From the NCBI RefSeq assembly GCF_019469265.1, contig NZ_CP048268.1, forward strand, positions 651,501-715,500: DNA of 64,000 nt, read 5' to 3'. Source of the stretch: Lactobacillus panisapium. Lineage in GTDB: Bacteria; Bacillota; Bacilli; Lactobacillales; Lactobacillaceae. The notes under the pieces were generated by a model that had not been told where the DNA came from, searched no databases, and was given only the letters and a program-made list of their open reading frames with translations. This document shows, in pieces, positions 1-5,712 of the stretch (position 1 is the stretch's first letter; each line of letters starts with the position of its first letter). A program made the translations under genes and the position numbers.

Positions 1-1
1 T

Positions 2-1273
2 GAAATTTCAAAAGAGCGCATAATTGGTAAATCTAAGGATCTTTTTGGAGATAAGGTATACTCAGACTTAGGTACTAAATTAGTGGGGGCGGTGGCTAAT
101 ACTGATAATACTGACTTTGAGTCAGCTACTAAAACCATTTCAAAACAAATTAATGGCTCATTAAATAAGGAAGTTATTAACCGTGTGGCAGAAGATTATA
201 GCTTGACTAAGCGGGAATCGATAAAGCAGGAAAAGCAGATTGAAAAAGAAACCGAGCAAGCTCTTAGTAAAATTGCAGCTGAATTTAACAATCAAAAGGA
301 TATTGCTGAGGTTACATACAAGAAGGAACAAAAAGCTGCACGTGATCAAGCAGAACTAAATGAGGCTAAGTTCAAATACGAAACTGCAGTTCAGGATATT
401 GTTGACAACTTTAGTAGAAAAATGCAGGATCATGTAAAACGAACCGTTGAAGAAGTTCCAACTAAGGTCATAGAACGTGTTGAAAAGAATGAAGAGGAAA
501 AGCGGATCTGTAATGTTGAAGAGGATGCACGAGCACACTTGCGTGGCTTTTCTCGGACAATCCCTAGTTTTATCATGGCATACGGCGATAAGAACCTGAC
601 ACTACAGAACTTTGATAACTATACGGAAGATGACGTATTCAAAGAAGTAACTGGCATTACTGAAGATCAATTTCGGTTTCTGCGTGATGGTGGAGATTAT
701 GTGGATGCTGAAACTAATAAAAGTAAACATTTTGATGGTCACTTATTTGATGAAGTAGTTTTTAACGATTCAATACAACAATTCTTAAAGAAGAAAAATC
801 AGCTAAGCAATTACTTCGAAGATAATAGCAAAGAAGATATTTTCGATTACATTCCACCTCAAAAAACTAATCAGATTTTCACCCCTAAAGCTATAGTGAA
901 GCATATGGTGGACGACTTAGAGACTAATAATCCTGGTATTTTTGATGATCCTGATAAGACCTTTGCAGATCTATATATGAAGTCTGGATTATACATTACA
1001 GAAATTGTAAGGAGACTCTTTCGTAGTAAGAAAATGAGGCAGCTTTTTCCAGATGACCACGATCGAATAAAGCATATTATGGAGAATCAAGTCTATGGCT
1101 TTGCCCCAACTCGAATCATTTACTTAATCGCAACTAACTACATTTTTGGATTTGATGAAGGATTAAAAGATTCATCAATGGAGAAGAATTTTAAACAAAT
1201 CGATGCTGCTAAATATGCGCAGGAAGGTACGTTACAAGAAGTAGTACAACGTGAATTTGGGAAGGGCGATTAA
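2..1273 (+). CDS. Restriction helicase/N6-methylase-type protein, C-terminal part (cut by window start)
   Basis: The reading frame is open from base 2, so the gene begins before the window; the first ATG-like codon inside is not its start. The visible part starts with a charged, probably coiled-coil stretch (Lys/Glu rich). It then has an N6-adenine methylase-like fold: QIFTPKAIVKHMVDDLE, the AdoMet motif I equivalent DLYMKSGLYITEIVRRLF, and QVYGFAPTRIIYLIATNYI. No NPPY motif follows before the stop. This arrangement is known from large single-chain DEAD-box helicase/methylase restriction proteins; the helicase half would lie upstream, outside the window. Whether the whole gene is intact cannot be told. 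It sits directly before a wrecked DUF262 gene, which suggests a decaying defence region. Family placement is moderately sure; the exact R-M type is not known. Confidence 0.5.
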   Translation, partial: EISKERIIGKSKDLFGDKVYSDLGTKLVGAVANTDNTDFESATKTISKQINGSLNKEVINRVAEDYSLTKRESIKQEKQIEKETEQALSKIAAEFNNQKDIAEVTYKKEQKAARDQAELNEAKFKYETAVQDIVDNFSRKMQDHVKRTVEEVPTKVIERVEKNEEEKRICNVEEDARAHLRGFSRTIPSFIMAYGDKNLTLQNFDNYTEDDVFKEVTGITEDQFRFLRDGGDYVDAETNKSKHFDGHLFDEVVFNDSIQQFLKKKNQLSNYFEDNSKEDIFDYIPPQKTNQIFTPKAIVKHMVDDLETNNPGIFDDPDKTFADLYMKSGLYITEIVRRLFRSKKMRQLFPDDHDRIKHIMENQVYGFAPTRIIYLIATNYIFGFDEGLKDSSMEKNFKQIDAAKYAQEGTLQEVVQREFGKGD

Positions 1274-1280
1274 TGATAGT

Positions 1281-2714
1281 ATATACTTATTTAATTTCCT
1301 AGGAAGTGGTAAGACAATTTTTGAAATTCCCGTTTGTCAGCGGAATTATTAATGGGAAAAGGATCAATATAAACAGCTATTTAATGATTTGACTGTCGTT
1401 GCACAAAATAATAGTGATCATTTTATTGGTGGAATCGTTTATGTTTCTGAGACTGGTAATAAGTTGAGCCATATTTATCGTATCATTGATGGCCAGCAGC
1501 GCCTTACGAGTTTAACGTTGTTATTAAAAGCATTATCAGATGTTGACGAACAAGATAAAGCCAAAATCGAGGAAGAATACTTAACTAATAAGTACTTGGA
1601 TGATAATAGTCATTTAAAGCTAAAGCCAGTCGAACATGATTATGAAGCCTTTTATTCTGTAATGAACGAAATGACTGACTTTAATAAGCCTTAGAAGGTC
1701 CATTGATAATTATCAGCTTTTCCAAAAGTTAATCAGAGATAGTAATATTGATAGTTCTGAGCTTTATGAAGCGATGAATCACTTTAATATGGTATATATT
1801 GAGCTGAGTAATGATCCTAATGAAGAAAACCCCCAGATTATTTTTGAAATTTTGAACTCTACTGGGGTTTCATTGTCACCATATGAGTTAGTTCGAAATA
1901 TTCTTTTAATGAAGCTAGATTCGCGGCAACAATCTGAACTCTATAAGAAGTATTGGGTTAAGATTGAGCTCATGTTTGCAACCAAAACTTTTGCTGAGTT
2001 CATCTAGCATTATTTAGTTGTTAAAACACATGTGTCAGTTAAAAAGAACGGCATATACAGTAGCTATAAGGACTACTTTTTTCAAAAGGACTAAGTTCTG
2101 AAAAGGCTTTATCTGATCTTTTGAAGTTTGCTAATTACTATTATCAAATACCGAATCATAAATCTAATGATTATGACTTCAATAAAATATTAGAGCATGT
2201 CAATGTAATGGACAGTAAGGTTGTATTTCCTTATCTGATGTTATTAATGGATTTAGTGAATTCTGATGAAATTAAGCAAGAAGAAGCTAATAAGTTGGCA
2301 CATATTTTGGAAGGTTACTTGTTCCGATTAAAGGTATGTCAAATGCCAACACATGATTTAAATAAAATTGTTGTACGACTTTTTGATCTAACAAGGATAG
2401 ATGGCAATTTAAGAATCAGATTATTTAGATTCTTGAAGGCAAACTTCCCAAGTGATCACAAACTGTTAGATATTTTGACAGAAGTGAACCTTTACTATCA
2501 GAGAAATCATTTGGCAAAGTTATCGCTAGTGATCCTTGAAGAACATCGAACCAAAGAAATAATTAATTTTGATGATGTTCAAGTCGAACATATTATGCCT
2601 CAAAGACTTAATGCAAAATGGCGACTTCAAGTTGCTAATGTTGATAAAGTCAAAGAACAGTATTGTGATACGCTTGGTAATCTGATTCTCTGTGATCCAA
2701 ATGCCAATTGTTAA
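1281..2714 (+). pseudogene. DUF262/DUF1524 (GmrSD-like) restriction protein, multiply broken
   Basis: Pieces in several frames line up in order as one DUF262-DUF1524 protein. The N-terminal part shows FEIPVCQRNY, then an in-frame TAA at 1350-1352, then WEKDQYKQLFNDL and the DUF262 signature IDGQQRLTSL. A frameshift near 1690 moves to the frame of SIDNYQLFQKLIRDSNID and the FEILNSTGVSLSPYELVRN block. A second in-frame stop (TAG, 1.98-2.01 kb) interrupts FI/HYLVVK, a second frameshift follows near 2.09 kb, and the last piece carries the HNH-like DUF1524 motif VEHIMPQ before ending early at 2714. Intact relatives are type IV-like restriction enzymes acting on modified DNA. With at least four lesions it should be inactive. 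Confidence 0.8.
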
Positions 2715-3043: not shown

Positions 3044-3072
3044 TTGTTATTTTACTTTTTGTATTATATAAT
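3044..3072 (+). promoter_or_regulatory. Sigma-A promoter of the three-gene island operon
   Basis: TTGTTA at 3044-3049, a 17-base spacer and TATAAT at 3067-3072. It lies about 40 bases before the first start codon, which has the ribosome site AGGGGGT at 3102-3108. Another TATAAT at 3090-3095 is too close to the start codon to be preferred. Confidence 0.6.
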
Positions 3073-3112: not shown

Positions 3113-4078
3113 ATGACAAAATTTGAAATGAGCATAGCTAACTTTAACTTAACATACGGTAAAGAGGAAAGACCAATGTTAGAACAATTTACAGATCTTG
3201 TTTATCCTGCATTTTGTTCTGACATAATTAGAACCTATGAAAATTCAAATTACTTTTTTATGAATACTGAATTGATTGATACAGTAAATGGTTTGGCTTT
3301 AAAGGGAATTTTAGTAAATAATACAGAAGTTGATATTAATTCGAAATATAATAGTAAAACTCGTAAACTAAGTAGCGCAAATGAAGTCTATTCATCAGCT
3401 CCATATTCTTTATTCTATATCTTTCTAAAAAATCATAGAATGATATATGTTAAAAATCAAAAAGTAAGTCCTTTGTTAGGAACATTCAATCAAACTGCTA
3501 AGTATGTACTACACCAGTTTAGAAAAAATGAAAATGAAAAAAGAAAAAAGATGAGACAGGAACTGCTTCCAGACTTTAATTTGAATGTTATGGGAATACC
3601 AAGTAGCAATGACTTGATGACAGAATTGAATAAAGTTGAAAAAATAAGCAAACTAAATCTGAGATTTTATCCATTAAACGGAGAAGACATTTATGAAACC
3701 AGTGAAGTTACACAAAGACTATTACAATCAATGTATGAAAGTAGAAAATTCTCTGGATCTAAAACAGGAAATGCTTCGTTTAATTCCCCCAAAGATAAAG
3801 AAAATGTTGCAAAAATGGTGTCAGAAGTAGGGGGTACTGCTGATGCAACTATAGAAGCAAAAAGCAGAGATGGTAGCTCAATAAAAATAAAAACTAATAA
3901 TGTTTCTCAAAAACTAAGGTTAGTTACTGAAGACGAATCGAATCAGATAACTGAACATGAAAGTGAGGTCTTAAAAAAGGCAACATCAATTCCAGAGATA
4001 ACCAGAGTCTCTGATAGAAACTCAGAGATTTATAAAAAATTAAAAAACAGTCTAAAGGCTTTACTTAAACATGACTAG
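3113..4078 (+). CDS. Soluble protein of uncertain family, first gene of the island operon (gene A)
   Basis: 321 residues, no signal peptide or membrane helix. The N-terminal half (about 1-140) looks folded, with alternating strands and a conserved-looking block SAPYSLFYIFLKNHRMIYV near residues 95-115; its layout recalls DUF4747-type proteins of bacterial defence neighbourhoods, but this is an impression, not a firm match. The middle (residues about 135-150) is a Lys/Arg/Glu-rich helix, and the C-terminal third is polar, Ser/Thr/Lys-rich and probably partly flexible. The ATG follows a strong AGGGGGT ribosome site. The next gene starts 18 bases downstream, so A, B and C form one operon. Base composition is much more AT-rich than in the metabolic genes after 6 kb, suggesting transfer. 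No catalytic motif is recognised. Confidence 0.7.
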   Translation: MTKFEMSIANFNLTYGKEERPMLEQFTDLVYPAFCSDIIRTYENSNYFFMNTELIDTVNGLALKGILVNNTEVDINSKYNSKTRKLSSANEVYSSAPYSLFYIFLKNHRMIYVKNQKVSPLLGTFNQTAKYVLHQFRKNENEKRKKMRQELLPDFNLNVMGIPSSNDLMTELNKVEKISKLNLRFYPLNGEDIYETSEVTQRLLQSMYESRKFSGSKTGNASFNSPKDKENVAKMVSEVGGTADATIEAKSRDGSSIKIKTNNVSQKLRLVTEDESNQITEHESEVLKKATSIPEITRVSDRNSEIYKKLKNSLKALLKHD

Positions 4079-4096
4079 CAATGATAAGAGTGAAAA

Positions 4097-4729
4097 ATGA
4101 ACGAAAAAAATAAGTATTTAGATGAACTCAAAGAACTAAATTCTATACGTGATTCTACTACTTTAGTTAAAAAGAGTTTTCTTTATTTGCTTCCTAAGAA
4201 AGGAAAGAATTTTAAAAAACAGTGTATAAAATTAGTTATTATAACTGTTTTTTCAATTTTTATAGTTTACTTTATTTCTCAATCAGGATACCAAATTACT
4301 AAGTTAAAAAATGTTATTTCACTTATTAATAACATTGATTTAGTACTTTTAGGTATTATATTTACAGGTTTTTCGGTATTTCAGGTTTTAATGAATCATG
4401 ATGTTACAAAGATGCTAATATCATATGATAATAGTAAAAGTAGATCTTTCGTAGAGCTTAATAAATCATATTATTATTTAATGACAGATTATGGATTAAA
4501 TATTTTTATAAATTATGTTTTATTATTGATACTGAATGTAATTCCTAAGTCTTGGATTAATTTTGCTGTACTCCATGCAGTTTGCTGTTTAAGCGTATTC
4601 CTGGTTTTTTATTTAGTAACATCGTGTTTGATAATATATGAGCTCAAATATTTTTTATTTAATTTATACTCTGTATATGTGTTAAGATCATCAGTAGACT
4701 TTTGTAAAAATGATGAAGAGGACAGCTAA
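4097..4729 (+). CDS. Four-helix membrane protein, second gene of the island operon (gene B)
   Basis: 210 residues. A basic cytoplasmic N-terminus of about 40 residues (KKGKNFKKQ) is followed by four hydrophobic helices at about 42-62, 80-98, 132-150 and 154-181, and a short acidic tail (NDEEDS). Both ends are predicted inside. No known transporter or enzyme motif is seen. Size and topology are like KwaA, the membrane subunit of the Kiwa defence system, but sequence homology was not established. It follows gene A by 18 bases with a weak GAGTG ribosome site and overlaps gene C by one base (TAATG), which implies coupled translation with gene C. The neighbourhood suggests a membrane-bound partner of a DNA-binding protein. 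Confidence 0.75.
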   Translation: MNEKNKYLDELKELNSIRDSTTLVKKSFLYLLPKKGKNFKKQCIKLVIITVFSIFIVYFISQSGYQITKLKNVISLINNIDLVLLGIIFTGFSVFQVLMNHDVTKMLISYDNSKSRSFVELNKSYYYLMTDYGLNIFINYVLLLILNVIPKSWINFAVLHAVCCLSVFLVFYLVTSCLIIYELKYFLFNLYSVYVLRSSVDFCKNDEEDS

Positions 4730-5712
4730 TGAAATTGCAAAATGCATTAATTCATATTTTGGATAAGGAATCAGGCAACTTGATTTTATCACAATCACAA
4801 TTAAGCCTTGATAATAAAATTATTACTAATTATATATTAAAATTAATAAAAAAATTTGAACGTAGTGAATATATAGAAGATTTTGTTACGTCATCACCTA
4901 TACTTCTTCAGTACAATAAAACTGACTTTGAGAATTTCTCTAGTAAAATAGCTAATATTTTTTTTAAATCTATTAAAGATAGAGAAATGATACCAGGAGG
5001 AGATTTGCTTTTTTTTAGGGCAAAAGATAACGATGATAATAGTTTATTTGGTTTCTTTAAATTAGATTATAGCAGTGAATATCTACATAATATTATCTAT
5101 AATAGCAATATACTTAAAAATGATATTATTTTGAATAGGACTGTTTTACCTTCTGTAAGAAAAAAAATTAATGAAGGAGTTATGGTATATAACAATCATA
5201 AAATTGCAATAAGAAGCAAAACATATACTGATAATCAGGGAAGTTGGAACTTTTTAAAAGATGTTTTGAAAATGAAAAAAAAACCAAAAAAAATATCTGA
5301 AACTCTTAACGAAATAAAAGATATAGTTTATGAAACTTCGACTGATTTTGGAGAAAATGAGTTAAATGTTGATATAAATTTGAAGAATGCAATACATGAG
5401 AGCATGCAGATGGAAAATACCGTTGATAATGGATTTATAGCCGATCAAGTGTTTATGGACAATGAAACGGCAAAGGCTGAATTTAAATCAAAATTAAATT
5501 TGAATGGAATTGAAGAAGTTATAAAAGTTCCTAATTCTCATGTGTTTGATAAAAAGTATAGTAAACAGAAAATAGTATTAGACAATGGGATAACAATTAC
5601 GATTCCAACAGAACTAATAAAAAATAAAGATATCGTAGAATTTAAAACCAATATTGATGGAACCACTTCAGTTATACTGAAAAACACATCTTGGATAAAG
5701 AATAAATTTTGA
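4729..5712 (+). CDS. NdpA/YejK-type nucleoid-associated protein, third gene of the island operon (gene C)
   Basis: 327 residues. The N-terminus (ALIHILDKESGNLILSQSQL), the middle (GGDLLFFRAKDND followed by LFGFFKLDY) and the C-terminal block (LDNGITITIP, then VEFKTNIDGTTSVILKN) match the family of 37-kDa nucleoid-associated proteins (NdpA/YejK, PF04245) as I know it. E. coli YejK binds DNA; Gram-positive members are often found in mobile or defence regions with no known role. The length is normal for the family. The start overlaps the stop of gene B by one base. The gene is as AT-rich as A and B. It may be the DNA-sensing or DNA-acting part of a three-protein system with a soluble and a membrane partner; that role is inference. 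Confidence 0.75.
   Translation: MKLQNALIHILDKESGNLILSQSQLSLDNKIITNYILKLIKKFERSEYIEDFVTSSPILLQYNKTDFENFSSKIANIFFKSIKDREMIPGGDLLFFRAKDNDDNSLFGFFKLDYSSEYLHNIIYNSNILKNDIILNRTVLPSVRKKINEGVMVYNNHKIAIRSKTYTDNQGSWNFLKDVLKMKKKPKKISETLNEIKDIVYETSTDFGENELNVDINLKNAIHESMQMENTVDNGFIADQVFMDNETAKAEFKSKLNLNGIEEVIKVPNSHVFDKKYSKQKIVLDNGITITIPTELIKNKDIVEFKTNIDGTTSVILKNTSWIKNKF

Follow-up and report, generated by a model that had tools for sequence, protein, structure and literature searches.

The window analysed here is a stretch of 64,000 nucleotides from Lactobacillus panisapium (contig NZ_CP048268.1, positions 651,501 to 715,500). Near its beginning lie three neighbouring genes, here called A, B and C, which we discuss as a candidate phage exclusion system of the RexAB type with an additional third gene. 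Together with a promoter-like site they are arranged as follows.

3044..3072, plus strand: promoter-like site TTGTTA-17-TATAAT, not above shuffle background
3113..4078, plus strand: gene A, 321 amino acids; cytoplasmic protein of predicted RexA fold, proposed DNA-binding sensor
4097..4729, plus strand: gene B, 210 amino acids; four-helix membrane protein, proposed RexB-like effector, directly 3´ of A in 44 of 47 distinct loci
4729..5712, plus strand: gene C, 327 amino acids; NA37/NdpA/YejK-type protein, optional third gene

All three are intact open reading frames on one strand, with a gap of 18 bases between A and B and an overlap of 1 base (TAATG) between B and C. A first-pass annotation of this DNA had described the genes as tightly spaced, free of lesions and very AT-rich, and coordinates, reading frames and base composition all bear this out. 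The three 1-kb blocks between 3001 and 6000 have a GC content of 24.3-28.3%, versus 30.5-43.2% in the remaining 61 blocks of the window. As the most AT-rich part of the window, the operon suggests horizontal transfer. A and C had no match at E 0.001 in the other 74 genomes of the genus (75 were searched, its own included). The same annotation had credited the operon with its own promoter, and here it went too far: promoter-like sites in the region number 27 versus 23.3 (standard deviation 4.8) in shuffled sequence, which is no excess.

Relatives of the first two genes are widespread. Residues 6-135 of A gave a match to a gene in P2-like phages of Klebsiella, residues 4-128 to one on a Salinivibrio plasmid; each of these genes is followed by one for a hydrophobic protein of 201-210 amino acids, which aligns with B at 20-22% identity. 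In the record of Klebsiella phage 4LV2017 this B gene (L002:7034-7639) is unannotated, though its partner A is annotated. A first scan of genome contigs, and viral scans using single proteins, found nothing. Profile searches recovered A-B-C intact from a different genus of the family (Secundilactobacillus pentosiphilus; G287, L057) and from an unclassified Bacillota genome (G720, L071), and pattern scans yielded 8 viral loci, 18 further distinct viral loci and 24 genome loci. Once copies sharing the last 150 residues of A are merged, 47 distinct A loci are counted, which fall into 40 clusters at 90% identity. This count leaves out weak A matches in G643, G759 and G937 (E 1e-4 to 2e-3, no B match), L004 and other Klebsiella phage records because they are copies of L002, and, on account of A fragments scoring no better than E 0.34, L019 (G085), where these fragments precede B and C is absent. 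B follows A on the same strand in 44 loci; of the three others, L056 and L065 have sequence that runs out, with 0 and 114 bases remaining, and L076 has a short A of 227 amino acids. A is in pieces in L055, L077 and L080. The A-B family occurs in many Bacillota, in P2-like phages, in Collinsella (as broken copies) and on one contig labelled as an archaeon.

The predicted fold of A, which has no hydrophobic segments, is that of RexA; the structural match came from a second-look aligner, not from Foldseek alone. Directly downstream, as expected for the partner of a RexA-like protein, B has four hydrophobic segments (residues 43-61, 80-98, 141-159 and 162-180), whereas C has none. C scores 68.5 bits against Pfam NA37, whose cut-off is 24.6, and belongs to that family over its full length, from which nucleoid association and DNA binding are predicted for it. 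Hence the first-pass descriptions of B as a four-helix membrane protein and of C as NdpA-type both stand. A profile built from three C sequences did not pick out YejK among PDB sequences. A match of B to TMH4C4 (6m6z; E 4.4e-4) was set aside as probably due to membrane-helix composition.

We consider A and B likely to form a divergent phage exclusion pair of the RexAB type, in which A would be the sensor and B the membrane effector, and C likely to be a recruited accessory. The basis is the gene anatomy, the predicted fold of A, the topology of B, the conservation of A with B, and the identity of C and its repeated place behind B; each step of the activity is modelled on the RexAB systems of lambda, Sbash, CarolAnn and Pseudomonas putida. 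A, soluble and probably a DNA-clasping dimer, might react to phage DNA-protein complexes or to a phage protein. Activated A would then trigger B, and the resulting damage to membrane integrity would halt the infected cell ahead of phage production. C, as a YejK/NdpA-type accessory, would most likely tune the trigger of A by binding DNA or A itself, either as a co-sensor or as a brake. In lambda, exclusion of T4rII was not correlated with DNA binding by RexA, and the trigger may therefore be a protein.

The points that weigh against this proposal concern each of the three genes and their surroundings. Foldseek alone gave no match for A at E 0.001, and 8twq was absent among the 50 matches listed. 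Profile comparison of A with lambda RexA and with the Sbash/CarolAnn proteins by hhalign gave a probability below 1%; since the accepted RexA-Sbash pair, used as a positive control, fails likewise, this comparison decides nothing. DUF4747 was not matched by A of the window or by five other A members scanned, and was passed by one remote A relative (L032); PF15931 gave one match in 199 genomes of the phylum, below its cut-off. A and B found nothing significant in Pfam, NCBIfam, PADLOC or PHROGs, and among sequences of solved structures A found only doubtful matches. A would be filed as a divergent RexA-type protein by predicted fold, partner and position, and B may be likened to RexB by topology and position alone.

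As to the surroundings, no phage-type marker lies within about 7 kb of A in the window. A marker was found in 28 of the 47 loci by a crude test whose reference proteins, chosen by eye, came from 13 of those same 28 loci; six of the 28 are close P2-like relatives, and three (L045, L067, L074) depend on an amidase or repressor-type match alone. Klebsiella phage 4LV2017 has the order repressor, A, B, integrase, comparable to cI-rexA-rexB of lambda, and several A-B relatives adjoin a repressor. These neighbours, together with the modulation of the CI-Cro switch by lambda RexA apart from exclusion, fit a lysogeny switch, in which DNA binding by A (and C) would bias prophage induction, with exclusion as a by-product. 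We hold this to be improbable, because the copy in the window and 18 of the 46 other loci have no phage-type marker by the same crude test, and some A-B relatives stand beside restriction or DISARM-like genes.

The third gene presents the remaining difficulty. C is found behind B in six loci (the window, L057, L071, L039, L040 and L078, the last an 8.4-kb contig labelled Methanimicrococcus, a label taken as recorded) and is missing from 41 of the 47. The same order thus recurs in five further loci, more than chance would give; as a fixed set, however, A-B-C did not hold up, the constant part being the A-B pair. Of 249 genomes searched in the phylum, 14 (that of the window among them) carry NA37. 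Within 5 kb of 14 further NA37 loci, which lie in 13 genomes, there is no relative of A (best E 0.039) or of B (best E 0.46). NA37 as a general partner of A-B was accordingly rejected. In a tree of 37 A proteins, which has several long end branches, the window and L057 are neighbours (support 92/73), the C-bearing members do not form one clade, and the well-supported branches cannot be reconciled with fewer than four gains or losses; the C label shows no more clustering than shuffled labels do (103 of 500 shuffles as low).

Because of the 41 loci without it, C may be an unrelated passenger and A-B alone the unit, which would be compatible with a RexAB-type reading of these two genes. The NA37 loci without A or B and the scatter of C on the tree point the same way. 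Nevertheless we regard the passenger explanation as unlikely: in the six loci the B-C gaps are only -20 to 59 bases (four overlap by 4 to 20 and the window by 1, lengths that depend on the chosen start codon), and the C proteins of the other loci are 25-40% identical to that of the window. A rare gene at one exact site in distant relatives implies either repeated gain, or old presence and loss. If, on the other hand, C were the real trigger sensor, a nucleoid protein recruited perhaps several times, the RexAB-type membrane effector would be set off by phage attack on the nucleoid or phage takeover of it. This is unlikely in our view; if true, RexAB would become a three-component guard of the chromosome state that reads nucleoid integrity.

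Some further observations concern NA37 genes. Selenomonas genome G434 (L075) has a lone NA37 gene on contig 7 (L093) and an A-B pair without C on contig 3 (L030), so C could act from elsewhere there. Weak NA37 relatives at L099:3953-6007 and L100:4048-6041 are each followed by a same-strand gene of 320-328 amino acids, possibly a different two-gene NA37 module. At L039:7742-8173, C is followed, two bases on, by the start of a gene for an IrrE-like M78 peptidase; phage Sejanus has an IrrE-like gene two genes beyond its RexA-like gene.

The first-pass annotation had favoured a membrane-linked anti-phage or anti-plasmid system of Kiwa-like logic, with A as an extra sensor or effector. Read as a Kiwa-like membrane supercomplex, B would be the counterpart of KwaA and C of KwaB. 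Membrane-linked phage defence remains the favoured function, now of RexAB type, but the Kiwa part is very improbable. Kiwa does share the general logic of a membrane protein with a DNA-related partner. In PADLOC (E up to 10), which presumably holds the Kiwa models, A and C had no match and B only CorA at E 6.1; the weak KwaB fold match was at background level, tied with unrelated matches resembling major histocompatibility complex proteins. Moreover, the constant partner of B is A, with its predicted RexA fold, and not C. Kiwa identity was therefore rejected.

Upstream of the operon, the order is Eco57I-type methylase reading frame, ResIII protein and GmrSD gene in pieces, in agreement with the restriction protein and ruined DUF262/DUF1524 gene reported in the first pass. 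L086 position 14502 is window position 1.

L086:11419-12414: Eco57I-type methylase open reading frame, preceding the ResIII protein, outside the window
1..1273, plus strand: 3´ end of a ResIII-domain protein, in-frame continuation of a protein begun before the window (L086:12418 onward)
1389..2714, plus strand: broken GmrSD-type (DUF262/DUF1524) gene in pieces 1389-1694, 1774-2007 and 2121-2714 (the search covered the first and last pieces)

At L086:10680-12414 two reading frames overlap by 8 bases, the second being the methylase and the first having no Pfam match; this is perhaps another decayed gene. Two small neighbouring reading frames at L086:6214-6848 resemble an antitoxin-toxin pair, as judged by eye. 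Other A-B loci have neighbours of their own. In Vagococcus allomyrinae (L031:487-8898, also L058) A-B lies between a large helicase/MZB-domain pair, which we take to be DISARM-like, and a NOV_C protein, likely within a defence island. A DpnII-MboI-type restriction-domain protein starts 53 bases after B in Clostridium yunnanense (L067:7664-9019) and is another candidate third partner. In Selenomonas ruminantium (L030:5958-6794) 8 bases separate A from the end of a preceding gene for a trypsin-like peptidase, with repressor-type and integrase-like genes near. On the conjugative Klebsiella plasmid NZ_CP083056.1 (L004), a P2-like prophage with A lies close to an annotated qnrS1.

Five RexAB-like systems were counted as of January 2026 (PMC12894663). 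In that account DNA binding belongs to the RexA-like proteins, and their membrane partner is presumed to damage the membrane and so stop growth of the infected cell; for four of the five systems the membrane protein is regarded as the effector. The exception we have to consider is mycobacteriophage Butters, whose RexA-like gp30 is described as acting alone and being restrained by gp31. Because roles can thus be reversed, we retain the explanation that the antiviral activity resides in A, which B, together with C, would only keep inactive at the membrane. The same anatomy would be expected; in view of the presumed effector role of the membrane protein in the other four systems, we think such a reversal rather improbable.

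RexA-RexB of lambda differ from A-B in that B has 210 amino acids here versus 144, an extra NA37 gene is present, no repressor adjoins the copy in the window, and RexA has no detectable sequence similarity to A. Sbash gp30/gp31, CarolAnn gp44/gp43 and Butters gp30/gp31 (the DUF4747/CarolAnn prophage system), in phages of Actinobacteria, likewise combine a cytoplasmic RexA-like protein with a four-transmembrane partner. They gave no profile match to A, although the remote A relative passes DUF4747; the accessible text names no third gene there, their neighbours being mostly hypothetical proteins among which no search for NA37 was made. P. putida RexABpp (PP_5643-5644) is likewise a divergent RexA-fold protein with a four-helix membrane protein in a prophage; it is a two-gene, gammaproteobacterial system and is set beside A-B by description, not by sequence. 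From Escherichia coli YejK/NdpA, C differs in being co-encoded with A-B. In the open-licence literature we found nothing joining RexA with NdpA or pairing any two of DUF4868, NdpA, KwaB and RexA, and nothing combining NdpA, nucleoid-associated and anti-phage. The A-B family members scanned matched no defence model, so scans with such models would miss the family. The first-pass view that no named system has this gene set is thus partly retained: by predicted fold, partner and position A-B would be of a known kind, RexAB, and A-B-C a new variant of it. RexAB exclusion goes back 70 years and its activation is still unexplained; the recurrent addition of a nucleoid protein would offer a direct handle on the trigger, through comparison of systems with and without C.
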